From Natrinema halophilum (GTDB lineage Archaea > Halobacteriota > Halobacteria > Halobacteriales > Natrialbaceae): a DNA stretch of 64,000 nt. The stretch spans positions 3,348,001 to 3,412,000 of the forward strand of contig NZ_CP058601.1 of the NCBI RefSeq assembly GCF_013402815.2, written 5' to 3'. A program made the translations under genes and the position numbers. Positions 4,369 to 30,520 of the stretch are shown piece by piece. Positions within the stretch are counted from its first letter, which is position 1. Every line of letters begins with the position of its first letter. Below the pieces are notes generated by a model, which worked only from the letters and a program-made list of their open reading frames with translations, was not told where the DNA came from and did not search any database.

Positions 4369-5289
4369 ATGACTGTCGTTCCGAACCACGTCCGGGAAAC
4401 CGTCGACGACCACCTGACGGAACTCGAGCGCGAGCACGACGTGGTGGTCGCGCTAGCGGTCGCCCGCGGCAGCCGCGCCTGGGGCGCGGCGAGTCCTGGC
4501 AGCGACTACGACGTCGGGTTCGTCTACGCGCCGACGGACCTTCGCCGGTACGCTCACCTCGAGCGACCTCCCGGAACCATCGTCGAGGACCGCGGCGAGT
4601 TTGAGTATCAGGGCTGGGACGTGCGGACGTTCGCGGGCCTGCTCGCCGACTCGAACGATGGGGCGATCGACCTTTTGCGGAGTCCGATCCGCTATCGCAC
4701 CGCCTACGACCCCACGCCTCTGGCCGAATACGTCGAGCGGACGTACAACCCGATCGACCTCTATCACGCGTGGCGCGGGATCGCGACGAGCAACTACCGG
4801 AAGTACATCTCACATCATCTGGTCCGCAATGACGACGAGATCTTCCCGATCCTCGAGACTGACGTCGACTCGTACGTCATCGAGACCGACGACGGGACGG
4901 CGACGGTCGCGGGCGACGACGAGCGGTTCGCGGAGACACAGACGAAGCCGACCGTCAAACGAAACCTCACGATCCTCCGCGCAGCAATGTCCGCGCGCTA
5001 TCTGAAAGCGACCGGTGACCGCGGCGAGCACGACCTTCCTGTGCTCGCATTCGATCGGTTCCTGCGCGAGCAGGCGCCCACCGTGTTCGACGCGGAGCGG
5101 ATCGAGGCAGCCCGAGCATTGCTCGAGCGCAAACAGGCGGGTGAAGGGGCAGTCGAGATCGGCGACACCGTCGGCCGCGAGTTCGCGCAGCCGCCGCGAG
5201 AAATAGATCCCGCGATCCACGCCCGCGACGGCCCCCGTACGACGCAGATAAACGAGTTTATCGACGAGGTACTCGCCGCAGTCCAGTGA
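4369..5289 (+). CDS. Predicted nucleotidyltransferase, RlaP/DUF4111-like (PF10127 type)
   Basis: The product is 306 residues. Residues 29-52 carry the minimal nucleotidyltransferase signature: VARGSRAWGAASPGSDYDVG gives the G-S and D-x-D metal-binding pattern. The rest is mostly helical and contains YHAWRGIATSNYRKYI and TKPTVKRNLTILRAAM, typical of the RlaP family (RNA-ligase-associated predicted nucleotidyltransferases). The substrate is unknown and no RNA ligase gene is next to it. Repeat R4 lies directly upstream and R5 directly downstream, so the gene is framed by the repeat family. Confidence 0.75.
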   Translation: MTVVPNHVRETVDDHLTELEREHDVVVALAVARGSRAWGAASPGSDYDVGFVYAPTDLRRYAHLERPPGTIVEDRGEFEYQGWDVRTFAGLLADSNDGAIDLLRSPIRYRTAYDPTPLAEYVERTYNPIDLYHAWRGIATSNYRKYISHHLVRNDDEIFPILETDVDSYVIETDDGTATVAGDDERFAETQTKPTVKRNLTILRAAMSARYLKATGDRGEHDLPVLAFDRFLREQAPTVFDAERIEAARALLERKQAGEGAVEIGDTVGREFAQPPREIDPAIHARDGPRTTQINEFIDEVLAAVQ

Positions 5290-6538: not shown

Positions 6539-7198
6539 ATGGCCGACGCAGACACCAATGCCGACGAGACGCAGGTGACGGACGACCGAATCACGATCTA
6601 CGCTGACTACGTCTGTCCGTTCTGTTATCTGGGGACACGCTCCCTCGACCAGTATCAAGATGGGCGCGACGAGCCGCTGGCTGTTGACTGGCGTCCGTTC
6701 GACCTCCGACGCGGGAAACGGAATCCGGACGGATCGGTCGATCACGATGCGAACGACGGAAAGGACGACCAGTACTACGAGCAGGCCAGGCAGAACGTCC
6801 GCCGGCTCCAGGACGAGTACGGCGTCGAAATGAGCCAGGAAATCGCGACGGAAGTCGATTCGTTCAACGCCCAGGTCGCATCGTGGTACGTCAAACAGGA
6901 GTTTCCCGACCGATGGGACGCATTCGACGAGGCGATCTACACGGCGCTGTGGCAGGATGAGCGCGATATCGGCGACAGTCAGGTGCTGACCGACCTCGCG
7001 GACGACGTCGGTCTCCCGAGCGACGAGATTCGCAAGGCCGTCGAAGACGACGACTACCGGGCGGACCTCGAGAAGCGCTTCGCGGACGCACACGAGGACG
7101 GAGTCACCGGCGTTCCGATGTTCGTCTCTGACGGTCGCGTCGCCCGCGGCGCGGTGCCGCCGGAGCACCTGAAGCGGCTCGTCGAGGGCGGACAGTAG
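6539..7198 (+). CDS. DsbA-family oxidoreductase, FrnE-like
   Basis: The product is 219 residues with no signal peptide, so it is probably cytoplasmic. The thioredoxin-fold active site YADYVCPFCYLG (CPFC) is at about residues 20-30. The helical insert follows, and the cis-proline loop GVTGVPMFVSDGRV is near residue 195. FrnE proteins are DsbA-type thiol oxidoreductases linked to redox stress or polyketide chemistry; the substrate here is unknown. The 3' end matters for the locus: a diverged second copy of this end (shared AGCGGCTCGTCGAGGGC) is found at 9110-9166, beside the intact nadK gene, indicating that the island 7199-9168 was inserted between the two. Confidence 0.8.
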   Translation: MADADTNADETQVTDDRITIYADYVCPFCYLGTRSLDQYQDGRDEPLAVDWRPFDLRRGKRNPDGSVDHDANDGKDDQYYEQARQNVRRLQDEYGVEMSQEIATEVDSFNAQVASWYVKQEFPDRWDAFDEAIYTALWQDERDIGDSQVLTDLADDVGLPSDEIRKAVEDDDYRADLEKRFADAHEDGVTGVPMFVSDGRVARGAVPPEHLKRLVEGGQ

Positions 7199-7204
7199 TA
7201 CCGG

Positions 7205-7313
7205 TTACTCGAGTTTGTCGAGCCCATCGAAGAAGTTCGCCTGCGGGCCGACGAGCGTAACGGGGTCGGGCGAGCGAGACCGAGATCGTCGCGGGCGGCT
7301 CGGTCGCGCTCAT
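7205..7313 (-). pseudogene. Remnant of the 3' end of an NAD kinase gene
   Basis: On the minus strand this piece encodes TEPPATISVSLA, then, after a frame change, VTLVGPQANFFDGLDKLE and a TAA stop. The intact nadK gene at 9169 ends EPPATVSVTLADDSVTLAGP followed by QANFFDGLDKLE. The nucleotide match (for example 7207-7240 against 9171-9204) is strong but not perfect, so this is a diverged, frameshifted copy of about the last 35 codons. It sits directly after frnE, as the true nadK end would have before the island entered. Confidence 0.85.
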
Positions 7314-7765
7314 CTAAGTCATGGTGAACATCTCTACACCGCAGTTATCGACGATATCTCGCTTTCACCGTCTGTTCTGTCACATTGAAATGGTTCGTCG
7401 CTGTCGTGGTCGTAACCACGGTCTGCTAGACTGTGTAAAACATAGCACGCCTACTGCTTGAACCAGTATAGTCCTAGTGTCTTATGGCCTGTCTCCCATA
7501 CGTTGATTGCCCTACTTATACTCTAGCCGGCGACTGTTTGGCGAGTTGTCTATTATACATTACAAAGCCCCATCGAGAATTTTCACGAGCTTTACTACCT
7601 AGTTGAGATTTATGAGTACCTGCTCGCTAGATGGATTATCGTAATAGTGATAAATAGACAGTTATTATAGAAATTGAAGCGCGTTATGGTAGAATACTAA
7701 TTTATAATATTAACTATACAATTGTTATAATTACCGCTAAAGATAGAAAAAATTAATAGTGAGAA
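7314..7765. other. AT-rich left part of the small island, no gene seen
   Basis: The base composition changes sharply from the GC-rich chromosome to AT-rich sequence with many TTATAAT-like runs (7680-7760). I see no open frame of substance and no integrase or transposase. Confidence 0.5.
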
Positions 7766-8662
7766 ATGATAACCGGAAATGCAATGACCTCCAATCAAGC
7801 GAATCACAGAAGTACGATAGAGACGGACAGGCGTACATTCCTTAAAGCAGGCTCTTATAGCGGGTTGGCAGCGATTGGAGCCTCCGGAGTAATGACCAGT
7901 TCAGTTACTGCGGCCAGCGATTCTTTCAACAAATTCGCTGAATTATCAAGAAACGGGAACTTTGAGGAAGCAGAGAAAGTAGCTAAAGAAAACGATTTTG
8001 AATACCATCTCAATACAGTCAGGGCTGGTCACAATGAGAATGGATTAAAGAGCACTTCTGGGAGCGTCTCTGCCCAACATTACTATAAAAAACCCAGCTC
8101 AACCGGTTCGGGAGAGGTCTCCCTGATTACCGGTAAAGATGGAAGAGAAATGTGGGTCACTCTTTATTGGGATCTCTATTATAATACTTCCCCATACGAT
8201 TTTGATGGACAAATGCCAAAAGATGCTTGTGTTATCGCTTGGGAAGATAGCCAATGGGGCCTAGTTGGTTTAGATACAGTTATTAGTTGGTCCGAGGTTT
8301 ACGCGGCTGCTGACAAGATAGAGTCGAAAAAATTACCAGTTGAGATGCAGGGTGGAGGATTAATTGGTGAGCAAAACAATGCACTTGGGTTTACAGTCAT
8401 AGATTGGCTTAAAGACCGATCGGGGGACATTCTGCTCACTGATCGGTGCGAAGGAGCCGTCCAAGCTAAACTTCGAAAGCAAAACTATCCTGAGCGCCAA
8501 CCTGGGCGTATTGAAACGCTATACGAACATACTTGGAGTATTGGTAGTCTGGCTGGCTGGAACTTTCTTGAAAATGTGTCTATCTCACCTACCGGTACAG
8601 TCTCCGTGTCAGTACCCATTGGTGCTGATTCTTGGGAAGAACAAGACGACTATTCTGCCTGA
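7766..8662 (+). CDS. Tat-exported protein of unknown function
   Basis: The product is 298 residues. The N-terminus carries a twin-arginine signal: TDRRTFLKAGSYSGLAAIG at residues 21-39, with a likely cleavage site after SSVTAA near residue 50. The mature part begins with a charged helical segment (FNKFAELSRNGNFEEAEKVA) and continues as a beta-rich domain with many W, Y and G residues and only two cysteines. I recognise no family. An alternative ATG lies six codons downstream (7784). Codon use is AT-rich, unlike the flanking genes, suggesting transfer. The small membrane protein gene begins 97 bases downstream on the same strand; the two could work together, but that is only proximity. Confidence 0.75.
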   Translation: MITGNAMTSNQANHRSTIETDRRTFLKAGSYSGLAAIGASGVMTSSVTAASDSFNKFAELSRNGNFEEAEKVAKENDFEYHLNTVRAGHNENGLKSTSGSVSAQHYYKKPSSTGSGEVSLITGKDGREMWVTLYWDLYYNTSPYDFDGQMPKDACVIAWEDSQWGLVGLDTVISWSEVYAAADKIESKKLPVEMQGGGLIGEQNNALGFTVIDWLKDRSGDILLTDRCEGAVQAKLRKQNYPERQPGRIETLYEHTWSIGSLAGWNFLENVSISPTGTVSVSVPIGADSWEEQDDYSA

Positions 8663-8730
8663 TATTTAGATAAATTAATATATAACATTCATATTTACTT
8701 ATTTAATAGGTATTACTATAGCAAAAAGCA

Positions 8731-8738
8731 TTTTTATC
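8731..8738 (+). promoter_or_regulatory. TATA box for the 60-residue membrane protein
   Basis: TTTTTATC lies 21 to 28 bases before the ATG at 8759, so the small gene probably has its own leaderless promoter. Confidence 0.4.
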
Positions 8739-8758
8739 GCGAATGTATACCTCGCTAC

Positions 8759-8941
8759 ATGGATAGAACTGATTGGTTTCTCGCGCTCATTCTGCAATTA
8801 TTAGCTATAATAGCCCTTGAATCGGTATCCAGTGCCACAAATGAATTATTCTCTGAAATTGGTGGTGGTATAGCTATCATAGTAATCATTTTCCTCCCTG
8901 TTTATATAATAATTCACTATATATTGGGATACTCCGAGTAA
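8759..8941 (+). CDS. Small two-helix membrane protein in the island
   Basis: The product is 60 residues, starting MDRTDWFLALILQLLAIIAL. Two hydrophobic helices (about 7-21 and 36-56) are joined by a short polar linker (SSATNELFSEIGG). It lies just after the Tat-exported protein and is AT-rich like it. No family is recognised. A role as partner or immunity protein of the exported protein is possible but untested. Confidence 0.55.
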   Translation: MDRTDWFLALILQLLAIIALESVSSATNELFSEIGGGIAIIVIIFLPVYIIIHYILGYSE

Positions 8942-9109
8942 AAATTCCAACATGGGGGCGGAATTAACATCATTTATCCATACGGTGAAGTGTCTGACCC
9001 CAGGTCGGGAATAAAACAACTCCCACTTCACTGTGAACAGATTCTTATGAACACTGAAAGGACATCTTCTTCACTGTAAGATGCTAAGTTTCTACCAACA
9101 AACGAGTGG

Positions 9110-9166
9110 AACACGCCGAGCGGCTCGTCGAGGGCAGCAGCGGCGACGCCTGCGGCCGTCGATAGC
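9110..9166 (+). pseudogene. Remnant of the 3' end of a frnE-like gene
   Basis: The frame reads ERLVEGSSGDACGRR and a TAG stop, matching the last codons of the intact frnE gene (LKRLVEGGQ) through the shared 17 bases at 7173-7189 and 9119-9135. The copy differs in its final residues, so it derives from a related but not identical locus. It lies directly before the nadK stop, which mirrors the left junction. Confidence 0.7.
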
Positions 9167-9168
9167 GA

Positions 9169-10005
9169 CTACTCGAGTTTGTCGAGCCCATCGAAGAAGT
9201 TAGCTTGCGGGCCGGCGAGGGTGACGGAATCGTCAGCGAGGGTGACGGAAACCGTCGCGGGCGGTTCGAGGCGCCGTCGGTTCCGGCCATCGCTGATCGC
9301 ATAGGCCGTCTCGGTCCCGGAGATGGAAAGCGTAAGTTCGGTGTCCGGTTCGACGACCAGCGACGGCATCGACTCGGTGGCGGCCATCTGCGTGACGACG
9401 AGCGCGTCGGCCGTCGGATACACCAGCGGCCCGCCCTCGCTGAGATTGTAGGCGGTCGAACCGGTCGGCGTACAGACGAGCACCCCGTCGACGTGGCTTT
9501 CGGTGTACTCCTGGCCATCGACGCAAACCTCGACCGTCGCGCCGCCGCCGGGCCCTCGCCGCGGTCCGTGGACGAGGACCTCGTTGAGCGCGGGCTCGAG
9601 CGTCCAGTCCTCGTCGACGCCCGTTGCCTGAAGCCGAGTTAGCTCGCGCCCGTCGACGTCGCCCGTTTCGTCGAGTTGGGAAACGAGATCGGTGACGACC
9701 GCGAGCGCGTCGTCCGGAGCGACGGCGTTGAGAAAACCGACTTCGCCGAGATTGACGCCGAGAATCGGCGTGGCTCCGATCTCACGGGCGACGAACAGTA
9801 GCGTTCCGTCACCGCCGATACTCACGACGAGGTTGCGACTTTCCATCGCGGAAACTGGAGCGGCCGTCGCCTCGATCGCCCCGCCAGTCGCTTCGTCGAC
9901 GATGACGCCCGCGCCCTCTCGTTCGAGGGCATCGACGAGGGTTGCGGCGAGTTCCTGTGCACGCTCGTTGTCGCGCTGAGCGACGATTCCGACGGCAGCC
10001 TCCAT
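9169..10005 (-). CDS. nadK: NAD(+)/NADH kinase
   Basis: The product is 278 residues. The family motif is VVSIGGDGTLLFVAREIGA at about residues 60-78 (GGDGT nucleotide-binding loop), followed by GVNLGEVGFLNAV and, near residue 180, VCTPTGSTAYNLSEGGPLV. The enzyme phosphorylates NAD to NADP in the cytoplasm. The C-terminus GPQANFFDGLDKLE is the sequence duplicated as a remnant at 7205-7313. nadK and frnE were presumably direct convergent neighbours before the island arrived. The ATG at 10005 is the only reasonable start, with the divergent KaiC-like gene starting 232 bases away. Confidence 0.92.
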   Translation of the reverse strand: MEAAVGIVAQRDNERAQELAATLVDALEREGAGVIVDEATGGAIEATAAPVSAMESRNLVVSIGGDGTLLFVAREIGATPILGVNLGEVGFLNAVAPDDALAVVTDLVSQLDETGDVDGRELTRLQATGVDEDWTLEPALNEVLVHGPRRGPGGGATVEVCVDGQEYTESHVDGVLVCTPTGSTAYNLSEGGPLVYPTADALVVTQMAATESMPSLVVEPDTELTLSISGTETAYAISDGRNRRRLEPPATVSVTLADDSVTLAGPQANFFDGLDKLE

Positions 10006-19218: not shown

Positions 19219-19290
19219 GCCTGGGTAGCTTAGCGGTAAAGCGCGTCCTTGGTAAGGACGAGAGCCCGGGTTCAAATCCCGGCCTAGGCT
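19219..19290 (+). tRNA. tRNA-Thr(GGU), integration target
   Basis: A complete cloverleaf: acceptor GCCTGGG with CCTAGGC (one G-T), anticodon arm CGTCC-TTGGTAA-GGACG with anticodon GGT, and T arm CCGGG-TTCAAAT-CCCGG. The discriminator is T. The 3' part from base 19245 is repeated exactly at 30521-30567, which marks it as the attachment site of the element downstream. The tRNA on this side remains intact. Confidence 0.95.
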
Positions 19291-19291
19291 T
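19245..19291 (+). other. Left attachment site (attL) in tRNA-Thr
   Basis: A 47-base segment from GTCCTTGGTAAGGACGAGAG through the end of the tRNA plus one T is identical to 30521-30567. It covers part of the anticodon arm and the whole T arm, the usual target of archaeal tyrosine recombinases. Confidence 0.9.
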
Positions 19292-19443
19292 ACACGGCCT
19301 TAACGTCTCTCTCGACTGATTTCCCCTTCTCAGGAGAGACGAACCATGCCCAATAACATCCGAAAAGACTACAACCCGATAGCCGCGCAGTCTTGCGATT
19401 CCAGAACGTATCATGGCACACAAACAAAAGGGGGTGCGCGCCG

Positions 19444-20642
19444 GTGACCAACCAGCCCGATCCCCTGGACAACCTTCCCGCCGGAGGTGGAACTCCACGA
19501 GAAGGTCTTCCGCCAGCACCAGAGTCTGTAGAGTTCGACTTCCCGCTCGTCAGCGAACGCTCACGCGAAGATCTCGAGGCATATGGACTCAATATGATCG
19601 AGGACTACCACGACTTCAAGAAGGAAGTCCTCTCGTGGCTCGCGACCTACGGGAAGCATCCAGAGAAAGGAGAGGGCCTTGCAGAGAGCACCCTTCAGTC
19701 AACACACTACAAGCTGGAGATCGTCTTTCGGTGGCTTTGGGAAGACGAGGACGCCTACACGACAGCACTCACACCGGACCACGCTGACCGTTTCATCCGC
19801 CTCCTCAATCGCTCAGACGAGATGGCTGACTCCAGCGTACTTCACTACGGAAAAGCGGTACAGCGGTTATTCAAGTATCAGAACCAGATCCACGGAACCG
19901 ATTACGACTGGGAACCAAAACCCGAACTGAGTCAGGCGACCGGCGACGAACGGGATTACCTTCGTCGGACAGCCTTCAAGCCGCTATACCAGGCCGCGCT
20001 GGAATACAACTCTGTCAAGAGCTATCATAGTGAGATGTCCACCGAGGAGCGCGATCGGCTCAAGATACACGTCTCAAAACGCCTCGGTGTCCCCAAGTCT
20101 GAGGTCGGACCCGAGCACTTCGAACAGGCGAACTCGTGGAAGGAGCCCTCGATCATCGCAGTGACGCTGGACACTGGACTCCGTCCTATCGAAGTCGGTC
20201 GAGCCAGCACAGACTGGGTCAATCTTGATAATAACGAGCTCAACATCCCCAAAGACGAGTCCACGAAGAACGAAGCTCACTGGAACTGCTCGATCAAGAA
20301 GCGTACGTCAAGAGTCCTCAAGCGGTGGTTAGAGGAGCGAGCAACGTACGCCAAGTACAACGATCGGAACGAACTCTGGCTCACAAAGCAAGGGAGCAAG
20401 TAAAGTTCGAAGTCGTGTAACTATCTACTGAGCCGTCTCGTTGACGAGGGAGATCTCCCCATCCCGGATCACAAGGAGATCACATGGTACTCGATTCGTC
20501 AAGGGTAGCTACCTACTGGGCGAACCACCTCGGTCCACATCACGCGAAGGAACAGCTTCGTCACAAGAGTGTCACCACGACGATGAAGTATCTTCACTCC
20601 GACGCTGAGACTCGTAACGACGCCGCCGAGCAGATCTGGTAG
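19444..20642 (+). pseudogene. int: Tyrosine integrase of the tRNA-Thr element, disrupted
   Basis: From the GTG at 19444 the frame gives an N-terminal core-binding domain (LAESTLQSTHYKLEIVFRWL near residue 80) and the first catalytic arginine in TLDTGLRPIEVGR near 245. It stops at TAA 20401-20403. The same frame resumes with SKSCNYLLSRLVDEGDLPIP and EITWYSIRQG, then a one-base loss in the G run at 20503-20505 shifts it to ATYWANHLGP, AKEQLRHKSV and TTTMKYLHSD, ending TAG at 20640. TWYSIR, LRHK and MKYLH are the family's catalytic boxes, with tyrosine as the nucleophile. The intact protein would be about 400 residues and resembles integrases of haloarchaeal plasmids such as pHK2. As written, no active enzyme can be made. 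Confidence 0.85.
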
Positions 20643-20826
20643 ACACCCTGCTGTCGGAGCATTGTCCTACGTCGTGACAGCAGTGACGCGCTGTCCTTCG
20701 ATTTTTGGCTGCCACATCAAAGTTGTAATCAAATAACAAGTATACTATCAAGCACTAACTCAGGGATATAGCATCACCCCGAGAGAGGCATCGTTACCTG
20801 ACCACCGACAACAAACAAACGAAACT

Positions 20827-21555
20827 ATGAGCAACGATACGAACGACCTTGGAAAGCCACTTGATAGCAACATGACGAAGGGGGGTTATTCGCGTTATAC
20901 GGTGGCCAGCCTGCTCCAAAAGGCAGTCCGTCGAGGAGACCGCGAGAAGGCGGTCTGGGCGAGCTTTGAACTCGCACGCAGCGGATGTTCCTGGAACTTC
21001 TGGGACAGAGCCCAAACCGTTCTGCTGGAGGACTGCCGACTTGCGGTCACTGAGGCTGACCTACTCCCTGCCATCGAACGACTCCGACAGCTCGCCACGA
21101 AGAAGTGGGACCCCGACGAGGGAATGGGCCTCGCCTGCGCGATGCGAGCGGCCAGCCTGCTCGCTGAGGCCGAGTCCGCTCGTGAACTACTCCCGATGAA
21201 GAACTGGTGGCTGGAGATCGCTCCAGACCGGATGCAATCGCTTCGGCGCGGGGAACAGCCAGAGCACGACTTCCCTGTCCAGCCAGAGAGCGAAGGGCTC
21301 GGCGAGTTAGGCTACGTCGTCAACGACACGCACACCGCGGCAGGCTCAAGAGCAGGTCGCAACATGGCGCACTACCTGATCGAGTCGAGCCGGATAACCG
21401 ACCAGTCTGAGCTGGGCCAGCAGTATCAGAGCCTCATTATGGAGCACGAGATCAGCTACGGCCTGACCGACGAACAGATTGACCACGGAACGACGCCTGT
21501 TTCCGAGGACGAACCTTGGGAGTACGACCGCGAGATCGCGTTCCCGCGACACTAA
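20827..21555 (+). CDS. Helical protein resembling the C-terminal domain of MgsA/RarA
   Basis: The product is 242 residues. Residues 20-125 (YSRYTVASLLQKAVRRGDRE, then KAVWASFELARSGCSWNFWD and LEDCRLAVTEADLLPAIERL) resemble the collar helices at the C-terminus of clamp-loader-like AAA+ proteins MgsA/RarA/WHIP. There, a conserved K-(S/A)-x-R-x-G-D-x-x-A-A is followed by an A/E-D segment. The ATPase domain is missing, so this would be a stand-alone oligomerisation domain. The C-terminal half ends DEPWEYDREIAFPRH and is not recognised. A role in element replication is inference. Confidence 0.6.
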   Translation: MSNDTNDLGKPLDSNMTKGGYSRYTVASLLQKAVRRGDREKAVWASFELARSGCSWNFWDRAQTVLLEDCRLAVTEADLLPAIERLRQLATKKWDPDEGMGLACAMRAASLLAEAESARELLPMKNWWLEIAPDRMQSLRRGEQPEHDFPVQPESEGLGELGYVVNDTHTAAGSRAGRNMAHYLIESSRITDQSELGQQYQSLIMEHEISYGLTDEQIDHGTTPVSEDEPWEYDREIAFPRH

Positions 21556-21887
21556 GCTCACCCTTCCCCGTTCTGATCCCCCTTTCCCTCAGATTGCCCA
21601 GAGCATTTCCAACTCAGAGCCAATTCACCCGAAGTCACGGTAGCATCTTCCTATCGGAATTTGAAAGTATTCGTTCGTAATCAAGTATGATGAGTCTCAG
21701 TTGGGTGGTGGCACGGTGAGACATGGCCAAAACTCGATGACTGAAAGCTATTCTCAGCTGATTCCAAGTATCGAAATCTGCTTTAGATACATCCTCTTCA
21801 ACCTCGAAGGGTACCACTCTAATCAAAAAATTGAAAACTAATATATATGCTTCACGGATAATGTGTATCCGTGGAGTAAGTGTCAAG

Positions 21888-22028
21888 ATGACTGGTGAAC
21901 GAACCAGTATTAAGCTGGAAAAGCGGGTCAGAAACCGGCTCAGAGGTGCGAAACGAGGCGGTGAGACATATAATCAACTGCTCGACAAGATGCTTGAGCA
22001 GTATGACCCAGAGGAGGCGGGTCACTAA
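21888..22028 (+). CDS. Small DNA-binding/antitoxin-like protein (DUF7557-like)
   Basis: The product is 46 residues, starting MTGERTSIKLEKRVRNRLRG and continuing AKRGGETYNQLLDKMLEQYD. This is the pattern of the many haloarchaeal ribbon-helix-helix or VapB-like small proteins (strand, then helix with RGGETY). An upstream in-frame start at 21831 adds residues overlapping the TATA-like TAATATATATGC at 21840, so 21888 was preferred. No toxin gene is adjacent. Confidence 0.6.
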   Translation: MTGERTSIKLEKRVRNRLRGAKRGGETYNQLLDKMLEQYDPEEAGH

Positions 22029-22132
22029 GCACTCGAGAGAGCGGGTCAAGTACCGACGTCACCGGGCCGATTGATTAGAGGCCAGTCAGCCCGGTGGTCG
22101 GTGATGGTTCGCTCCGTATGGAGTTACGAAGC

Positions 22133-22246
22133 ATGTTAAATTTACACGCACAAGCCGATAGAGGTTACGGGTTCTCCGAACTACGGGAAGCCCGACAGTG
22201 TCGCTCAGAAACCGTGCCTGCGGCATCCGGGGGTGTCATCCCGTGA
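22133..22246 (+). CDS. Possible 37-residue protein coupled to the ATPase gene
   Basis: A frame starting MLNLHAQADRGYGFSELREA ends in TGA at 22244-22246, overlapping the GTG start of the ATPase gene (GTGA at 22243-22246). The tight coupling is the main reason to list it. No family is recognised, and the composition would also fit chance. Confidence 0.3.
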   Translation: MLNLHAQADRGYGFSELREARQCRSETVPAASGGVIP

Positions 22247-23808
22247 GTGAGACCACCGACAGGGAGAGGTCACAATCCTCGGAGGTTGAGACCGAACTAC
22301 CACCGCCTACAGAGCGGCTTGCGGCAGAACACGATTACGACAGCATCATCGAGGCAATAGAAAAGGACTCCGACAAGGCATATGAGAAGCCGATCATCGA
22401 TGCGCTGGCCTTAGCAAAGAAGAACGATGAGCCGCTTTGGGCCCGATTCGCAAGTGCTCTGTCTGATCTTGACGGAGTATCGTACAACGAGTACAGGTCG
22501 ATGATCGCAGGACGCGAAGAAGAGCTATTAGAGGAGAATCAGGACCAAGAACAAGCCGTCGAGGAGACGACTCCGGATGACCCCCCTGAACCCGATTCGA
22601 CGGCGATGGCTTGGTCAGCTGTGGCCGAGGTGATAGAGGACACGTTCGACACACGGTCGCGACACCTGGCCGACGCCTACATGACAGTATTCGTCCGGAT
22701 GCTGTTCATCGCCGTCAGTGACTGTCCGATGGTCATCGCGATCGGCCAACCTTCGACAGGGAAATCCACGGTGGCAGAGTTGTTTACTGACCTGCATCTC
22801 AGCCAATCGCATGCTATCGTCATCTCGAGCGCGTGGATCAGCCACAACGCCGATGGCGACAAGGGTGAGTACGACCTGCTTCCGCGGATCAAGCAACGTG
22901 TGATGATCGCCGCGGAGATGGGCCCGTGGTTCACCGGTGATGATGTAGCGGAGTATATGCGAGTCCTCTCCCGGGTCGCCGATGGAAGTGGGATGGCCAA
23001 GACGACGGGCGCACACGGTACAACTCGCTATGAGTCGGACTATCCCGGTGAGTACCGGTTCGGGCTCGTCGGCGCAACCACGTTCCCCAACAAACAGGCA
23101 TGGATCGAGATGGGGAACGCTGGCTCTCGCTTCCTGTTCCATCCGATACCGAAGGTGGACGACCTGCGCCAACTCATGGACACACTGAATGACGACCAGA
23201 AATACACCGAGAAGAAAGCAAAAGCAAGAGAGGCGATCACGGCGTGGTGGAGCTACTTCTACCACAAGCACAGTGGTGAGATCACCGACGAGCAAATGCC
23301 GTCTCTGACCGAGGATCAGCAATTTGCGCTGATGCTGTTAGCTCGACTCGTCGCTCGCGGGCGAGCAGTGGATTTCGGTGGGGACCACGACCAAAGCGGG
23401 GTCGATATGAGCGAACAGGAGACTCGGTCCTACAAGATGCTTGAGCGGATGGTGTATGCTCGGGCCCTTGGGTACGAACGCGCGGCTGTCAATGACGCGG
23501 ATATGGAGATGGCGGCCCGTGTGGCGTTCGCGTCGATCCTGCAGTGGCGACAACCCGTCGTGAAGATGCTCTGTAATCCTGCCCACGATGGGCCCTACAA
23601 GTCTGGTGATGTCGAGAAGCGACTCGGGGTTGCCCGATCAACAGCCATCGATCGGATGAAGGGGGCAGGCCGTATCGGCGTCGGGTCCTATGAGCACGAG
23701 TCGAGACAGAGCGGACACCAAACGGGAGTCGTGTCCCTTGCGGATGTGCGCCTTCGAGGAATCTTCGAGAAGGGTACTGTTCCATGGCCATTCACATCAG
23801 ATAATTAA
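22243..23808 (+). CDS. P-loop ATPase, probable replication protein of the element
   Basis: The product is 521 residues from the GTG at 22243, which overlaps the preceding short frame by GTGA. Residues 1-110 are acidic and helical. The ATPase core has Walker A MVIAIGQPSTGKSTVAEL near 168-185, a Walker B-like RVMIAAEMGPWF near 222 and a sensor-like RFGLVGATTFPNK near 273. The C-terminus carries a winged helix (YKSGDVEKRLGVARSTAIDR, near 452-471). This arrangement suits a helicase-loader or replication-initiation ATPase of haloarchaeal plasmids and viruses; the exact family is not recognised. The next 500 bases are gene-poor and G/C-run-rich, as an origin next to a replication gene would be. Confidence 0.7.
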   Translation: MSETTDRERSQSSEVETELPPPTERLAAEHDYDSIIEAIEKDSDKAYEKPIIDALALAKKNDEPLWARFASALSDLDGVSYNEYRSMIAGREEELLEENQDQEQAVEETTPDDPPEPDSTAMAWSAVAEVIEDTFDTRSRHLADAYMTVFVRMLFIAVSDCPMVIAIGQPSTGKSTVAELFTDLHLSQSHAIVISSAWISHNADGDKGEYDLLPRIKQRVMIAAEMGPWFTGDDVAEYMRVLSRVADGSGMAKTTGAHGTTRYESDYPGEYRFGLVGATTFPNKQAWIEMGNAGSRFLFHPIPKVDDLRQLMDTLNDDQKYTEKKAKAREAITAWWSYFYHKHSGEITDEQMPSLTEDQQFALMLLARLVARGRAVDFGGDHDQSGVDMSEQETRSYKMLERMVYARALGYERAAVNDADMEMAARVAFASILQWRQPVVKMLCNPAHDGPYKSGDVEKRLGVARSTAIDRMKGAGRIGVGSYEHESRQSGHQTGVVSLADVRLRGIFEKGTVPWPFTSDN

Positions 23809-24312
23809 GCTTTTAGCGATCGAGAGGGTGTGAGGGGATCCCCCACCCCCTCCTACTGCGGTACGTGTACGAATGAGTACGATTAGCCCTAATCGGGGTT
23901 TAGTTCTATCCACGCGTACGCGAAGATGGAAGGTGGGGGTAGGGGGGTGGTCCCCACAGGTCACAGAATCGCAAAAGCATCTGCAGTCGATCACGTCGTA
24001 TCGGCTTCGCGGGCCAGAGCAGGGAGCATTGACTCGCGAGAGGAGGCACCCCTGCTGCCAGAGCCGTCCGACCGGCATGCGGCTACCCCGACTGGCATGG
24101 GGCTGGCCCTCGCAGCTGACAGCAGGGTATCCTCGAATGACTAAAAGTCGCGATAGAGGGGTGAAAAACGCGTAAACTACCGTTTCAGATACCACTAACC
24201 ACCATCCACACCTATCTCTAAACACGGGAACCCAGAGCAACAGCTACCGGATTTAGTCCGGAACCGGTGGTGGAGACACCGGCGTGGGCTTCCCGATGGA
24301 GACCAGGAAGCA
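23809..24312. other. Gene-poor stretch after the ATPase, candidate origin region
   Basis: About 500 bases without a convincing gene. It holds a C-run block (CCCCCACCCCCTCC near 23838), a small palindrome GATTAG-CC-CTAATC at 23881-23894, and a G-run block (GGTGGGGGTAGGGGGGTGG near 23932-23950) roughly complementary to the C-run block. Such features are common at plasmid origins, but nothing here proves one. Confidence 0.35.
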
Positions 24313-24555
24313 ATGTCAGATACGAGTTCCAGAGTGGAAACACTGTCGAACAGACACCCGGATGCGGAGCAAGTCGGCCCGCATCTGGTCATCGACAAGT
24401 CGGAGTGGGTGCCCGGAAAGCACCCTGAACCTCACCATGGATACGAGGGTCAGACCGAGTACTTGGAGCGGTACCTCCGCTGTATCCAGTGTGGTGTTAA
24501 GGTGCTGAACACGGACGATCTTCCTGAGACGTGCGACTCGGAGGGCCGACGATGA
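24313..24555 (+). CDS. Small CxxC protein of the element
   Basis: The product is 80 residues, starting MSDTSSRVETLSNRHPDAEQ. A C-terminal zinc-ribbon half reads YLRCIQCGVKVLNTDDLPET, with a third cysteine in ETCDSEGRR. The stop overlaps an ATG at 24552 (ATGA), so it is translationally coupled to the next gene. Its function is unknown; similar coupled cysteine-rich small proteins are frequent in haloarchaeal plasmids. Confidence 0.6.
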   Translation: MSDTSSRVETLSNRHPDAEQVGPHLVIDKSEWVPGKHPEPHHGYEGQTEYLERYLRCIQCGVKVLNTDDLPETCDSEGRR

Positions 24556-25021
24556 GCGGGAATCTCTCTCCGGCGTCACACCTGCGGACATCGACCGGCA
24601 CTACGGCGATGCCATCACGGACCACGAGCACGAGTGGATGCCGGTCGAGGAGATGCACCCAGTCCTCGAAGACATGGCCGCGATCTTCCACGAGCGGTGT
24701 TGCTTCGAGGAAATCGTGGACAGCTACACCGATCATCGGCGAGACGAGACGTACTACGAGACAGGCGCAGAGTGCGAGGCGGAACGTCACTACCGGTTCG
24801 AACTCGAATACGTCGAGACCGAGGAGGGACGGCTGAAATGTCACGACATCGACCGACTGGAGCAAGCGGACGACGAGCGGTTCGAGGCAGTAATCGCGGC
24901 AGAACAAGCCTTTCCCGAGGCGATGGAGGTCGTCGATGTCGATCCCGACCGTCAACAGGGCCAGGTAGTCGTCAGGCACGACGGCGTCGAGATCGGCTAC
25001 TGTCCTGGAGGTAAGATCTGA
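24552..25021 (+). CDS. Acidic element protein, apparent frameshift at its start
   Basis: The conserved-looking frame is open from 24554 and reads RESLSGVTPADIDRHYGDAI, then EWMPVEEMHPVLEDMAAIFH, to the TGA at 25019. It has no start codon before the internal ATG at 24638. The ATG at 24552, coupled to the previous gene by ATGA, lies in another frame. Adding one base (for instance a second C in GAGCGGG) would join them as MSRESLSGVTPADIDRH, about 156 residues. So either the first codons are shifted by a one-base loss or translation begins at 24638. The protein is acidic with scattered cysteines (RCCFEE, AECEAE). No family is recognised. Confidence 0.55.
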
Positions 25022-25191
25022 TGGCGACGTGTCGGGAACTCGGGTGTAATCGCAAAGCCACCCGTACAGTCGTCGTCAACGCGCCGGGCCGTGGATATGC
25101 GGAAGACCCCGCCTGTACAGAGCACACTGAGAAGGCTCGCGGTCGGGTCTACGTTAGCGAGGTACTGACCACCCGAGGTGACGAGCCGTGA
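25021..25191 (+). CDS. 56-residue cysteine-containing protein
   Basis: The frame starts MATCRELGCNRKATRTVVVN, continues GYAEDPACTEHTEKARGRVY and ends in TGA at 25189. The start overlaps the previous stop (TGATG) and the end overlaps the next start (GTGA at 25188-25191), so it sits within a strictly coupled operon. Cysteines C4, C9 and C36 with H39 suggest a small zinc site. Function unknown. Confidence 0.55.
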   Translation: MATCRELGCNRKATRTVVVNAPGRGYAEDPACTEHTEKARGRVYVSEVLTTRGDEP

Positions 25192-25571
25192 GCTCCGAAT
25201 CGATCCAGCCCGACGTAGAACCACGGACGGTTCGGGCGGCGACAGAGCACATGACCGTGATCGAGGAAGCGCCTGCGCTGTTTAGTGTTACAACTCAGTC
25301 AGGCTCGGAGTACACGGTCGATCTTCGTGAAGGTGTCTGCTCCTGTCACGACTACCGTAATCGCGAGCCAGAGGGTGGCTGTAAGCACTTGCGTCGAACC
25401 CGGATGGAGGTCGGACAGGTGGATGTCGAGACGCTGACCGCCGAACTCGAACGAACTGCCAGCGAGCTCGAGATGAGTGCAGAGCAACTCGAACAGAAAG
25501 CCCAGAATTTCAACGAGGAAGCCTCATCGCTGGAGGCCGCGATCGATAGGCTTCAGGAGGTCGCTCGATGA
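25188..25571 (+). CDS. SWIM zinc-finger protein with coiled coil
   Basis: The product is 127 residues from the GTG at 25188. The SWIM motif is CSCHDYRNREPEGGCKHLRR near 45-65 (CxC ... CxH), preceded by the usual strands (FSVTTQSGSEYTVDLREGV). Residues 78-125 form a heptad-like coiled coil (LTAELERTASELEMSAEQLE). SWIM domains bind DNA or proteins. Homologues are typical of haloarchaeal plasmids and integrated elements. The stop overlaps the next ATG (ATGA at 25568). Confidence 0.75.
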   Translation: MSSESIQPDVEPRTVRAATEHMTVIEEAPALFSVTTQSGSEYTVDLREGVCSCHDYRNREPEGGCKHLRRTRMEVGQVDVETLTAELERTASELEMSAEQLEQKAQNFNEEASSLEAAIDRLQEVAR

Positions 25572-25979
25572 GCCGTGATGTTCCAACCGAAACAGGGATT
25601 GAGCGGAGAAAAACTCGATGAACGGCCCTCAATTACGGGTGGTCGCGGCAGGTCCCCAACGGCGAAGGACACCGTCTACAGGAGCCATCGTGATCCGGCC
25701 GCACCGGTCGGTGAAGAGGTTGAGGTAACGGCTGATGGTGAGCCGCTGGATTGTCGGTATGATCCGCTCAGCGCCAGTCCCTCTGGCTTTGAGTTCGGGT
25801 ACGGCGGCTCAGGACCCGCGCAGTTATCGGTGGTTATGCTGGCTCACGCCTTCGATGATGAGTTCGCGTGCGAGCACTACCAGTAGTTCAAGCGTGAGGT
25901 CATCGCAACGCTCCCCGAGGAGGGCTGGACGCTCACGACTGGTGATCTCGACGAGTGGCGGGAGGCGAACATCGAATGA
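25568..25979 (+). pseudogene. DUF6166-like protein, disrupted
   Basis: The coupled ATG at 25568 gives only MSRDVPTETGIERRKTR before a TGA. In another frame the DUF6166-like core is clear: VYRSHRDPAAPVGEEVEV, DGEPLDCRYDPL, then GFEFGYGGSGPAQLSVVMLA. That frame meets an amber codon at 25884-25886 after FACEHYQ and then continues sensibly as FKREVIATLPEEGWTLTTGD to the TGA at 25977. At least two lesions (a frame change near 25600 and the amber) therefore separate it from an intact gene of about 135 residues. DUF6166 proteins are of unknown function and occur on haloarchaeal plasmids. Confidence 0.65.
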
Positions 25980-26173
25980 GCCGTCCCGATCCAGCGGCGG
26001 CCACCAACGGTGTCGAAACCAGACACATCTGCGATTCGTGCAACCGACGCATTGACTACGGTGGCAGGGCAGGAATGTATGTAACGTGGTACGATAGGAG
26101 GGCTGGACACCCAGACGAGCCTAGTGTCAGGAGGTACGCCTATACAAGTCCAGCCAGGAACCGAAGGTGCTGA
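25976..26173 (+). CDS. Small CxxC protein, last of the coupled series
   Basis: The product is 65 residues, starting MSRPDPAAATNGVETRHICD and continuing SCNRRIDYGGRAGMYVTWYD. The CDSC zinc-knuckle start and AGMYVTWYD are typical of small haloarchaeal element proteins, but homologues usually have a second cysteine pair. Here the frame ends NRRC, so it may be truncated. The start overlaps the previous stop (ATGA). A terminator-like hairpin begins at the stop codon. Confidence 0.5.
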   Translation: MSRPDPAAATNGVETRHICDSCNRRIDYGGRAGMYVTWYDRRAGHPDEPSVRRYAYTSPARNRRC

Positions 26174-26200
26174 CGAGGCCAGCCTCGTTGGAGTGTTTTT
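26173..26200 (+). terminator. Hairpin with T-run ending the coupled operon
   Basis: ACGAGG-CCAG-CCTCGT forms a six-base stem starting at the last base of the stop codon, followed after eight bases by TTTTT. It is well placed to end the transcript of the coupled small genes. Confidence 0.45.
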
Positions 26201-26755
26201 GCCACCGACTCGCTGGTATCCGTGTCCGTGACCGATGTCATCCGGAAAATCCCAATGAATACGCTCAGGAACAACGGTACAGCCATGTGTATCCTGCCTG
26301 TGTCCGACACACGAAACTCGCCGGATGATCTCCCCTATCTCCACAGCAGATGATAAGAAGCTCCTGCTGAATATAAATACCCAGTCAGCATATGGAATGG
26401 GTTGGCCTTGTTTAGACGCGGCGTAGGTTGCTACTGCCTCTACCGGAACAACGAAATCGGGCTGAAAGGCTCTCATGGCTTGGTTCTGCTCTCTCGACAT
26501 AGCCACTAACTGACACCTTTAGAGCGTCTAAACAAGGCTGAATGGGTTTAATTCACGTTTTGGAGTCTAAGCTGGCTGGTAAAACGCATATACACATGTG
26601 AGTCTTCCATTCAGGGTGAGTAAAAAAGATGCTTTTCATGATTCAACACCGGTGAAGCGAAGTACTCCCACACCGCGGGCAAATATCCCGCTTCAATATA
26701 AACCTCTTCCGGCACGTCCCATTGGCACACTCATACCGCTTAGTAGAAATTCCGT
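26174..26755. other. Intergenic stretch with hairpin terminator and MITE
   Basis: No gene is supported. The stretch holds the terminator at 26173, the 136-bp inverted-repeat element at 26404-26539, and AT-rich sequence leading to the end of the methyltransferase gene. Confidence 0.5.
26404..26539. mobile_element. MITE-like element with 15-bp terminal inverted repeats
   Basis: GCCTTGTTTAGACGC at 26405-26419 is the exact reverse complement of GCGTCTAAACAAGGC at 26524-26538. The nine bases GAATGGGTT occur immediately outside on both sides (26395-26403 and 26540-26548), a good target-site duplication. The 136-bp interior is too short for a transposase. On its minus strand a frame MSREQNQAMRAFQPDFVVPV could be the first codons of one, so it may be an internal-deletion relic of an insertion sequence. 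No full-length parent is in the window. Confidence 0.8.
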
Positions 26756-27460
26756 TCATTGAACAGTCCCTCCGATATAGCACCGCGTCGCCCTTCGTGG
26801 AAATTTCTTGGCGAAGGCTTCATCAATTCTTGCAAATGCGGGTAACCCGAATGACGGAACTGCCTCAAGAACAGTCTGTGTAAAAAATAGAATTCCCGAG
26901 GTCCAGTTCACGGTGACATCCTTGTTTTCGAAGATTGAGGTAACATCCTCTTTAGTAAGGTAAGTGGTGTTCTCTCGATATCTGTTGAATAACGCCTCAC
27001 TATTCACGAACTCAACCAATATTTCTCCGCCAGGTTTACATACTCGAATCATTTCATGTATCATTGATCGGGCATGGTCTTGGGTCGGTAGTTGATTGAG
27101 GGTCCGTATACTATAGACGCCATCAAACATATTATCTTGTATTGGGAGTTCTGTGCCGTCTAAGACACAAAGAGAGGCCTCTCGGTCGAGTTTCTGTCTT
27201 GCTTCGTTTATCATGTGTGCCGACATATCCCCGCCAGTCATATCTAAACCAAATTCTCGACCGTCCGCCATGAATCGGCCAGTGCCACAACCAACTTCCA
27301 GAATCTTCTCCCCGGCCTCAAGTTCCGAGAATAGTTTGTACAACTGGTTCTTCTCAAACTTGTCGAAGGCTTTCCCAGCCGGGTACTTAAATCGCTTTTG
27401 ATCGTAGATTACGGCCTCTTCTTCAGGATATCCTGTGAAATCCGTACTCTCTTCACTCAT
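26756..27460 (-). CDS. Class I SAM-dependent methyltransferase
   Basis: The product is 234 residues. Motif I is ILEVGCGTGRFMADGREFGL near 54-73, an acidic residue of motif II follows (LDMTGGDMSAHMI), and motif IV is QDNMFDGVYSIRTLNQLP near 112. It belongs to the UbiE/Methyltransf_11 type and could act on a sugar, lipid or other small molecule. It is AT-rich, unlike the core genes. The start overlaps the end of the upstream glycosyltransferase gene by eight bases, so the two form an operon and probably act on the same surface glycan. Confidence 0.85.
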   Translation of the reverse strand: MSEESTDFTGYPEEEAVIYDQKRFKYPAGKAFDKFEKNQLYKLFSELEAGEKILEVGCGTGRFMADGREFGLDMTGGDMSAHMINEARQKLDREASLCVLDGTELPIQDNMFDGVYSIRTLNQLPTQDHARSMIHEMIRVCKPGGEILVEFVNSEALFNRYRENTTYLTKEDVTSIFENKDVTVNWTSGILFFTQTVLEAVPSFGLPAFARIDEAFAKKFPRRATRCYIGGTVQ

Positions 27461-28565
27461 AATGCGTCATCAATGATTCCTCGTAAGTGTCCCAGTTCCA
27501 TCGTTTATTTATAGATTGTTCGGCTTGTTCTCCAATATCCATCATTTGTTTTGTATGGTTTAGTGCCCATGTTATAGCTTCCGTTACATCGTTGGCAGAA
27601 GGCGGAACTAAATATCCGTTTTCTTTATGTTGAATAATATCTACGTTCGATTCGACGGGGGTGGTGATGACTGGGGTTCCTGCCGCCATACTCTCCAGCA
27701 CTGCAAACTGAGGATTGATAGATAATCTACGGAATGGTAATACCACGACAGTCGCGGAGACGACCAAATCCTCAATAGTCAACGCCTCTTCATATGGGTA
27801 TGTTAATACATGAATATTCGAGTGGTTCTCGGCATCCTTCTTAATCTCTTGTTCGAATTCTACATTCGGACGGGTAGCATAGACGAAATCAATTTCAGGA
27901 TACTCCTCTACGAGAGCAGAATACGCAGTTCGGCAAATGTCACCTCCATTTACCCAATCTGCATTTCGCCAGAATAGAACGAAGTTATCGAACGGGGCAC
28001 GCGATGCGGTTGCCGACCTCACATTCTTTATTATACCTGGTTGCATAATATCAATAGCATTCCTTGGAACTTGTTGAGCGGTATATTCAGTCAATGAAGA
28101 GACTATATCTATTCTTTTCAAAAGTTGTTTTTCGAGCATAGAAGGGAGTTTAGTTCGCCCCGGATAAATTGTGAACGTCATATGAGACTCTGCGTCGACT
28201 CCCAATAGATCCAGTACGGATAATAAATAGGCAACCCGATGGCTACCAAAGAAATGGATTTTATCAAAGTTGCCTGAATTAATAATATTTTTTAAATTAG
28301 AAATCATTTTTAAAGAATTTATCTTATCTATATTATCATCTTTCCAGTGGCCGTGAATACTTGAAACTGTACTGAGGTCGATATCGTCATCGGTGAATTC
28401 TGGAACTCCATATCCCTCAGGGGCTTCATTCGTTATTATAGTAACATTATGACCGTTCTGACATAGAATATTTGCTGTCTGAATAGGAACTTGGACATGT
28501 CCAGAAATTGTATTTTTTCGTCTTTGATCATAAAGCGCTTCGGTGACAAATATGCCTATTTTCAT
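27453..28565 (-). CDS. GT4-family glycosyltransferase (GT-B fold)
   Basis: The product is 370 residues. The N-terminus is MKIGIFVTEALYDQRRKNTI, the acceptor side of a GT-B fold (HVQVPIQTANILCQNGHNVT). The donor side ends with the GT4 hallmark PQFAVLESMAAGTPVITTPV near 285-304 (E-x7-E-like), then NGYLVPPSANDVTEAI. The sugar and acceptor are unknown. It is AT-rich and lies directly upstream of the methyltransferase, overlapping by eight bases. Such pairs often modify S-layer or lipid glycans. As cargo of an integrated element they could change a virus receptor, which is inference. Confidence 0.85.
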   Translation of the reverse strand: MKIGIFVTEALYDQRRKNTISGHVQVPIQTANILCQNGHNVTIITNEAPEGYGVPEFTDDDIDLSTVSSIHGHWKDDNIDKINSLKMISNLKNIINSGNFDKIHFFGSHRVAYLLSVLDLLGVDAESHMTFTIYPGRTKLPSMLEKQLLKRIDIVSSLTEYTAQQVPRNAIDIMQPGIIKNVRSATASRAPFDNFVLFWRNADWVNGGDICRTAYSALVEEYPEIDFVYATRPNVEFEQEIKKDAENHSNIHVLTYPYEEALTIEDLVVSATVVVLPFRRLSINPQFAVLESMAAGTPVITTPVESNVDIIQHKENGYLVPPSANDVTEAITWALNHTKQMMDIGEQAEQSINKRWNWDTYEESLMTHYE

Positions 28566-28725
28566 CTTATCTGATTTTCAGCTGTATATAGTTAGGCTTT
28601 ATGTTATCTATTCAGTTTTGTACGATGAAGTAGGAGCGTGACGTAGGCAGTAGCAAAGACGGAGAGTGTGTTATAGAACTCTTCTCATACTACAATCAAT
28701 TTAATTATCACTGTAGCGGATTACT

Positions 28726-28738
28726 TGCACTAGGTGCA
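28726..28738. promoter_or_regulatory. Palindromic site O3 beyond the RHH gene stop
   Basis: TGCAC-TAG-GTGCA is a half-conserved version of the perfect palindrome at 28977-28993. It lies just after the stop of the ribbon-helix-helix gene, so it may be a third binding site or an echo of the operator family. Confidence 0.45.
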
Positions 28739-28744
28739 CAACGT

Positions 28745-28954
28745 TCAAAACCGGTTAGAGAGTGCCCTGACGTTTCGAATAATGATTTCTCGCACCCGTT
28801 CAACGTGGTTCGTCTCGGATTTAACGAACGCTGTGAGGATGGCTTCAACGATCTCGGAGCGGCTGGCTCCGAGATCGTCACACTCAGCGACCAATTCATC
28901 TACTTCTCGCTCGATTTCCTCGTCAACAGCGACGCCGAACCTCTCTTCCGCCAT
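28745..28954 (-). CDS. Ribbon-helix-helix (CopG-like) regulator
   Basis: The product is 69 residues, starting MAEERFGVAVDEEIEREVDE and continuing LVAECDDLGASRSEIVEAIL. A strand (FGVAV) followed by helix-turn-helix with G-x-S-R-S-E-I-V is the CopG/NikR/ParD-type DNA-binding pattern, probably as a dimer. A TATA-like CTTAAAC lies about 20 bases before the ATG, with a perfect palindrome just upstream of it (28977-28993), which strongly suggests autoregulation. The C-terminus (ETNHVERVREIIIRNV) may bind a partner. It could be an antitoxin, but no clear toxin is next to it. Confidence 0.75.
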   Translation of the reverse strand: MAEERFGVAVDEEIEREVDELVAECDDLGASRSEIVEAILTAFVKSETNHVERVREIIIRNVRALSNRF

Positions 28955-28976
28955 AGTTCAGACAAGTTTAAGACAA

Positions 28977-28993
28977 CGTGCACTAAGTGCACG
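28977..28993. promoter_or_regulatory. Perfect palindromic operator O1
   Basis: CGTGCAC-TAA-GTGCACG has seven-base arms and a three-base centre. It lies next to the TATA box of the RHH gene, where a bound dimer would block TFB/TBP, and it starts one of two tandemly repeated 80-base units. Confidence 0.7.
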
Positions 28994-29071
28994 ACGGTTT
29001 CGATTCGTTTATGTTGATTCAGCGAACTATATGAACTCTTCTATGACACGCTCATGACAAGCTAGGAACAG

Positions 29072-29088
29072 CGTGCACTAAGTGTACA
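29072..29088. promoter_or_regulatory. Imperfect palindromic operator O2
   Basis: CGTGCAC-TAA-GTGTACA matches O1 except for two changes in the right arm. It lies 51 bases before the ATG at 29139, so it could control the rightward gene. Confidence 0.55.
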
Positions 29089-29138
29089 GGGTAGGTCAAT
29101 TCGTTAGAGCTGATTCAGTAAACCATGAGAACTCTTCT

Positions 29139-29378
29139 ATGACACCCTCGATGGCTGCCTACTGTCTCATTCGTCTTGATCCTGACTCGAGCGCCTTGGG
29201 GATAGTTCGCTCGAAGGCGTCATCGCTTCGAGCGAATCTTGAACACTCCCTGAAAGAAACTGTGTACAACCTTCTCTTGTGGGTTCAGGACAACAATGAC
29301 CGAGGCATCGATGACCTCATGGAAGAGACCGACCACCTCTTCGTTCACTCAACAGCTGACGCTAATGTGCAAAGCTGA
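29139..29378 (+). CDS. Possible 79-residue protein divergent from the RHH gene
   Basis: The frame starts MTPSMAAYCLIRLDPDSSAL and continues SLRANLEHSLKETVYNLLLW, QDNNDRGIDDLMEETDHLFV. It has an amphipathic helical middle and an acidic end. The ATG at 29139 is equivalent to the ATG in the first tandem unit. No family is recognised. Its control region is shared with the RHH gene, so it could be regulated by it or form a pair with it. Confidence 0.4.
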   Translation: MTPSMAAYCLIRLDPDSSALGIVRSKASSLRANLEHSLKETVYNLLLWVQDNNDRGIDDLMEETDHLFVHSTADANVQS

Positions 29379-29832
29379 TTTATTTAGTTGGTCTGAGTTA
29401 CGTAGCTGAGAATCAAAATAATATTAAATAGCTGAGTATATGAGAGATATGCCTCTATATTAGGAATTCAACAAGGCCGGAGAGCAGGAACGCCTCAGCT
29501 CCGTGTGCGAAGGCTTCTTAAGGAATATCTGGATCGCACCGGGGTGCTGTCAGCCTCGTCGGCCCGTGTTCCGAATCATCCACCAGGGTCGGCTCAGCTA
29601 ACCGGCAATCGCACTTTGAAACACCCGTCATTATGATTCTAATAACGCCTATTTTGACGTAGCCGTTGTCTGGTGGTTCTCTGTATACGGTCCTGACAGC
29701 ACGCGCCGATTTGAATTGACCCCACACGATTTTGGCTGTTCCCAGTGACAAATCAAATATGGCTTTCAGCGTCTCGTGGCACAGGCTTCTCGACGACCTC
29801 ACCAGCTCTCCGACGGAGGGTAAGATACGCGA
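29379..29832. other. Intergenic stretch before the nuclease-like gene
   Basis: About 450 bases, AT-rich at the left (29390-29465) and of mixed composition later. A minus-strand frame at 29518-29802 lacks support. I see no repeat or promoter of note. Confidence 0.4.
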
Positions 29833-30342: not shown

Positions 30343-30520
30343 TGGTGGGTGATTGCTGGTTCGGTGTGGTGTTATCTGGAACGTGCTCCTGTGACTCCCG
30401 AGAGTGTACCATCGTTTATTTATAGGATCGTGCAGTTATTTCGGGATGAGTAGGTTCGATCTCAGTCGAGAACTGGCAATAGTGGCCGTGAATCGGCCGA
30501 TATTCGTCGATCTCGAGAAA

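Follow-up and report, generated by a model that had tools for sequence, protein, structure and literature searches.

A two-gene AT-rich islet between duplicated frnE and nadK gene ends in Natrinema halophilum, and a scar of the same kind at related islets

How can a short DNA segment with two genes and no integrase come to lie between two chromosomal genes that are both whole? The entry of single genes without an integrase into archaeal chromosomes is poorly understood, and the question is raised in concrete form by an islet rich in adenine and thymine (AT-rich) that separates the genes frnE and nadK in Natrinema halophilum (contig NZ_CP058601.1). The window is the whole 64,000-nt stretch of this contig that was analyzed, with positions counted from its first letter; the contig measures 4.36 Mb and belongs to a haloarchaeal-type genome, and the comparison set consisted of 28 congeners. 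G numbers denote comparison genomes and L numbers loci: G000 is the N. halophilum genome itself, G003 and G005 are two sister species of the window's species, and G012 is another congener. The names frnE, cold-shock-like, dph6-like and CPBP-like are labels that we assume to hold, except where a family match is cited. We confirmed that the duplicated frnE/nadK junction around the islet is real; moreover, scars like it surround other islets of the same gene family, and this recurrence is a wider finding that goes beyond the first-pass annotation of the locus.

The duplicated junction and its empty site

The islet (7303-9107, no strand assigned) spans ~1.8 kb at a guanine-plus-cytosine (GC) fraction of 0.41, with values of ~0.62 in the surroundings falling to 0.38-0.45 inside it. 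Its left neighbor is an intact frnE-like gene (6539-7198, + strand) for a 219-aa protein with a DSBA-like thioredoxin fold (Pfam PF01323, E 2.6e-32), and its right neighbor is the intact native nadK (9169-10005, - strand), recognized by NAD kinase models. The two genes are convergent, and their junction is present twice, in copies of ~140-160 bp each that are ~20% different. The left copy (7162-7302, no strand) is made up of the frnE 3' end, a 6-bp spacer and a nadK 3'-end remnant of a foreign allele (7205-7302, - strand) with a 2-bp deletion near 7269. The right copy (9108-9268, no strand) begins with a 57-bp frnE 3' end (9109-9165), followed by the native nadK 3' end. The repeats on both sides span the frnE end, a few intergenic bases and ~100 bp of the nadK end: 7162-7189 corresponds to 9108-9135 (82% identity), 7199-7268 to 9163-9232 (86%) and 7270-7302 to 9236-9268 (82%), and a single gapped alignment of the two copies covers 133 bp at 98 bits. 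Two blocks are identical in both copies, namely 17 bp in the frnE 3' end (7173-7189, + strand; partner 9119-9135) and 32 bp in the nadK 3' end (7206-7237, no strand; partner 9170-9201). Flanking direct repeats of gene 3' ends, imperfect here (78-86%), are a hallmark by which integrase-mediated integrative elements are recognized.

The direct repeats and the GC drop bear out the first-pass description of an AT-rich island between duplicated convergent 3' ends, with small corrections to its limits. The left nadK piece, placed there at 7205-7313, is homologous to nadK and has the 2-bp deletion; it ends at 7302. The right piece, placed at 9110-9166 and slightly shifted here, derives from frnE, because the frnE 3' ends immediately before nadK in several relatives align to it. 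In a random-placement control (n=1200, this genome and congeners), 12 placements gave at least 80 bits and 9 at least 100 bits; a first control had 36 of 1350 at 60 bits, and the window's own repeat accounted for three of the top four. The open reading frame list and family searches agree with the earlier statement that the cargo is two genes without an integrase: a gene for a protein with a twin-arginine translocation (Tat) signal (7766-8662, + strand) and one for a 60-aa protein with two hydrophobic segments (8759-8941, + strand), neither of which is a site-specific recombinase. RNA scans together with the list recovered no integrase, transfer RNA (tRNA) or Rfam RNA within the islet, and it has no terminal inverted repeats. 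Both frnE and nadK are complete, and no host DNA loss of the deletion-coupled type is seen at the insertion point.

The first-pass annotation had proposed examining the frnE-nadK junction in relatives. In 24 of the 28 congeners frnE lies beside nadK, with a gap of 0-25 bp in 22, and the remaining four are without a frnE match there. The islet is missing at frnE/nadK from all 28, none of which shows both remnants without the islet, a state that would speak against insertion; among 124 other family genomes its DNA was not found, except for pieces of the small gene in nine. The presence of a single junction copy at the empty site and two around the insert is the pattern of Campbell-type integration, and it holds for the window and for other islets. 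Three genomes have other inserts between frnE and nadK. The gaps of 400 and 436 bp in G021 (L047) and G024 (L038) hold a short gene, which we take to be cold-shock-like, and that in G401 (L139) holds ~1.7 kb of normal-GC DNA with a presumably CBS-domain transporter-like gene. All three are without duplicated ends (by reading); genes can thus settle in this gap without leaving the scar, and we rejected the idea of a general insertion hotspot.

The two copies differ in ancestry. The window's frnE groups with G003/G005 (support 100/99), as does its nadK (100/100), which marks the two intact genes as native. When the final 100 bp of nadK are compared, 26 of the 28 congeners are nearer to the left remnant than to the right copy, the best match of the remnant being G012 (91/100); G003 and G005 alone are nearer to the right copy. 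Six sites set G003/G005 apart from most others: the left copy has the majority state at five of them, and the right copy the sister state at five. With the full nadK alignment, a tree in which the left and right copies are sisters is rejected (approximately unbiased test, p-AU 0.009), in keeping with the earlier view that the shared segments, similar and not identical, reflect no simple recent duplication. Since the remnant is nearest to another species and the copies are not sisters, the left junction copy is, on these comparisons, from a related lineage. Toward the 3' end of frnE, thirteen sites are informative between G012 and G003/G005: the first eight are sister-like and the final five G012-like. 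Foreign DNA from about 7150 on would follow, with a possible replacement of the native frnE tail, or else these five sites may be changes in G003/G005. A gene at 4369-5289 likewise has 85.3% identity to G012 against 79% to the sister species, and is a second sign, close to the islet, of gene exchange with a lineage like G012.

Recurrence of the scar at other islets

The flanks of 19 small-gene loci and 15 Tat loci, window included, were scanned for direct repeats, and long ones were found at five other loci, in G245, G126, G113, G012 and G386. For a repeat test with a threshold of 60 bits, islet edges were set by GC; the flank geometry was fixed after the first matches were seen, and two loci without clear edges were dropped. 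Repeats of at least 60 bits flank 4/14 close-Tat islets with the window left out, versus 19/1200 random placements (Fisher p 9e-5).

Empty single-copy sites were found in relatives for three of the four repeat-flanked Tat islets and for one islet with the small-protein gene only. In G113, a 48-bp gene end, which we take to be that of a short-chain dehydrogenase-like gene, is doubled in identical copies and is single in three relatives. In G386, 53 bp are doubled and one copy is present in four relatives, the count covering these four with G269 left out; the displaced copy matches two of the relatives at every base but the one at the border, and the on-gene copy differs from them at three. The 51 bp doubled in G012 occur once in three aligned relatives. 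The corresponding site in the window's own genome has a ~0.6-kb insert (G000:C1:2669995-2670592, L274), presumably a TnpB-like fragment. In G126 the well-conserved repeat core is ~215 bp, and its relative G083 has the small gene and lacks the Tat gene and the second copy (both by reading). The 122 bp doubled in G245 are present once in two aligned relatives, with more such cases by coordinates. At this site G308 (L291) and G337 (L292) have extra tandem copies of the gene end, which we take to be dph6-like, without the small gene; the GC-rich tail alongside is dispersed in the genus.

Convergent gene ends form the target at five of the six sites, namely the window, G126 (by reading), and G113, G386 and G245 (from the gene order in relatives); the G012 site is a tandem arrangement. 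No RNA or tRNA target was detected at frnE/nadK or at the five other filled loci scanned. Among the six islets, neither clear terminal inverted repeats nor common end sequences are seen, and their duplications range from 48 to ~215 bp. The variable repeat length, the lack of clear terminal repeats, the lack of an integrase and the different gene ends argue against transposition. A transposon or miniature inverted-repeat transposable element was also rejected for the window's islet, which is single-copy: positions 7000-9600 match only themselves in the genome, as would not be the case for a multi-copy insertion sequence (IS).

How the islet may have entered

What kind of event would leave such borders? 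We propose, with about even confidence, a single-exchange insertion (Campbell-like, as for e14 at icd) of a small foreign segment at the frnE/nadK junction. The donor segment would have carried the Tat and small-membrane-protein genes together with the frnE/nadK junction of a related species, and one reciprocal exchange inside the ~160-bp junction would have joined it to the chromosome with no integrase of its own. The candidate exchange points are the 17-bp identical block in the frnE end and the 32-bp identical block in the nadK end; the left copy beyond the exchange point would be foreign and the intact right nadK native. The single exchange is an inference, as is its agent, which could be the recombinase of the host or an integrase supplied in trans. 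One exchange in the shared 3'-end segment would explain the doubling, the whole neighbors and the differing ancestry of the copies together: the junction would be present twice because the exchange fell within it, and with the duplication limited to 3' ends, neither neighboring gene would have been broken. The first-pass proposal of recombination with donor DNA bearing a related frnE/nadK junction is supported by the evidence; a circle, which it had named as a possible vehicle, was not found.

Several findings weigh against this proposal. Neither a circular form nor an integrase nor a donor genome came to light, and the frnE/nadK junction was not found on haloarchaeal plasmids. When the alignment is cut to the 97 shared columns, sister copies are no longer rejected (p 0.25); nor is a left copy that branches basally to the window, G003 and G005 (p 0.32). 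The 31-mer within the 32-bp block occurs in 0/28 congeners; an identical core is nonetheless shared by 13/176 equally diverged pairs, so that this core, possibly due to chance, is weak evidence. Among distant-Tat islets only 2/38 have repeats (Fisher p 0.13) and neither is clean: the repeat of L191 is explained by flanking IS copies, and that of L195, at 71% identity, perhaps represents paralogs. Both are included in the combined count of 7/67 islets with repeats (window left out). A scan of 864 kb of the genome gave nine AT-rich islets that stand isolated; the one at frnE/nadK is alone in having repeats, and the scar is on that account no general property of AT-rich DNA. Finally, given the relatives at the G245 site with extra gene-end copies and no small gene, the duplication in G245 need not stem from insertion.

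The near-identical target duplications at other islets would also suit two steps, that is, an insertion with target duplication in another species, followed by a double crossover in the shared flanks that left the donor's copy on the left and a native or hybrid one on the right. The last five G012-like frnE sites would fit a left crossover near 7141-7150; however, these sites are possibly ancestral and changed in G003/G005, and no species with this islet at frnE/nadK occurs among 125 family genomes. We consider this course rather unlikely. A third account has linear DNA anchored by homology on the left and joined illegitimately on the right, as in homology-facilitated illegitimate recombination or deletion-coupled insertion. 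Deletion-coupled insertions are common in haloarchaea (PMC3119063), and one-sided homology with a displaced remnant has been proposed for effector modules (PMC5361080). Yet the published deletion-coupled cases replace DNA, whereas here there is no apparent loss and 140-160 bp were gained, and repeats at several islets would amount to the same coincidence repeated; this makes the account quite unlikely.

Prophage e14 of Escherichia coli invites a further comparison, having inserted in the 3' end of icd, which stays whole, and left an imperfect duplicate of 165 bp with 12 changes at the far side (PMC11148124). Unlike e14, a prophage with an integrase, the present islet has 1.8 kb and two genes. 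It could be the remnant of an e14-like element that used a gene 3' end as its attachment site and lost its integrase: the duplicated gene end resembles that of e14/icd in size and divergence (PMC11148124), attachment sites inside protein genes have been described in archaea (PMC8371274), and the 48-53 bp repeats elsewhere match the 47-bp repeat of an integrated element at tRNA-Thr in the window. However, six repeat-bearing islets at six different target genes would require six separate integrase losses, the gene lists read for the six islets showed no evident integrase, and no integrase-sized frnE/nadK insert stood out in the family search (match coordinates), which leaves this origin highly unlikely. 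A simple duplication of the junction in this lineage, with later divergence and addition of the islet, would suit the sister-like copies at other loci and the tandem gene-end copies without the small gene in G308 and G337, and is most improbable given that the left nadK remnant resembles G012 and not the sister species.

The tRNA-Thr element itself (19245-30567; 19219-30567 with the tRNA gene) is an ordinary integrated element. Like the islet, it is bordered on each side by a copy of a gene 3' end in direct orientation; unlike in the islet, the repeat is exact (47 bp, 19245-19291 and 30521-30567), and the element is ~11 kb long with a tyrosine-recombinase-like gene (19393-20403). Among known haloarchaeal variation, deletion-coupled insertions and a few long-repeat indels have been described (PMC3119063; PMC10264941). 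In Haloquadratum walsbyi, also a haloarchaeon, strains differ by foreign DNA, and a few indels have long repeats (139 and 734 bp) at their borders; in contrast to the empty, single-copy relatives here, the repeats there were interpreted as having caused deletions, and inserted DNA takes the place of host DNA (PMC3119063). Displacement of effector-immunity modules is similar in that a foreign module lies beside homologous DNA and a displaced remnant is left, and differs in the genes, in concerning bacteria and in having no duplicated gene end on both sides (PMC5361080). A description of such islets at gene ends was not met in the literature searched, where many journals fell outside coverage.

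The recurring copied-end scar hints at a repeatable route by which such genes enter genomes. Both the scar and the empty site are readable, the copies have alleles of different species, and the scar recurs in the same gene family; therefore the entry step is testable with respect to exchange point, recombinase dependence and reversibility. As a tentative and somewhat doubtful generalization, these may be minimal mobile haloarchaeal islets, coding for an exported and a small membrane protein without a recombinase or terminal repeats, which would enter and leave convergent gene ends by way of 3'-end duplicates recombined by the host. If so, the repeat would set the target, and the source of each copy would record the donor species. 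Convergent gene ends as safe landing places would help to predict the sites of such genes.

Cargo genes and their relatives

The larger gene codes for 298 aa (alternative start 7784), and the twin-arginine motif is seen in all 14 aligned members of its family; the 60-aa protein, whose hydrophobic segments appear in its hydropathy profile, forms its own small family. Judged from these features, the former is predicted to be exported via Tat and the latter to be a membrane protein. Our guess is that the two might work together, the one secreted and the other its partner in the membrane, as in a halocin-like pair. The Tat protein falls into no Pfam, NCBIfam or PADLOC family, and marginal matches to an unnamed phage family were seen for two of the 14 members (best E 0.007). 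Its predicted structure has a mean predicted local distance difference test score (pLDDT) of 28 from a two-row alignment, too low to define a fold.

Relatives of the Tat protein occur in 21/392 genomes of the order (single-sequence search, window included), and its profile has matches (E <=0.001) in 86/391 genomes of the class, many of them short and confined to the signal region. The 60-aa protein is found in 13/392 genomes of the order, window included. A small hydrophobic open reading frame adjoins the Tat gene in 11/16 loci (by eye) and in 16/38 further loci (by rule); an obligate pair was rejected, the small gene often being alone. One plasmid record and no phage record has a Tat relative, no plasmid record has the small protein, and a scan of viral contigs with the single Tat protein sequence returned no relative; a plasmid or phage origin was rejected on these record counts.

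A second member of the Tat family lies in an AT-rich setting in the same genome (G000:C1:1685092-1685871, L180), without flanking repeats and with no small partner by the rule used. In G192:C1 the Tat gene is found in two distant halves, near 146963 (L149) and 1866552 (L090), as if broken by an inversion, and each half retains sequence common to the intact G126 locus.

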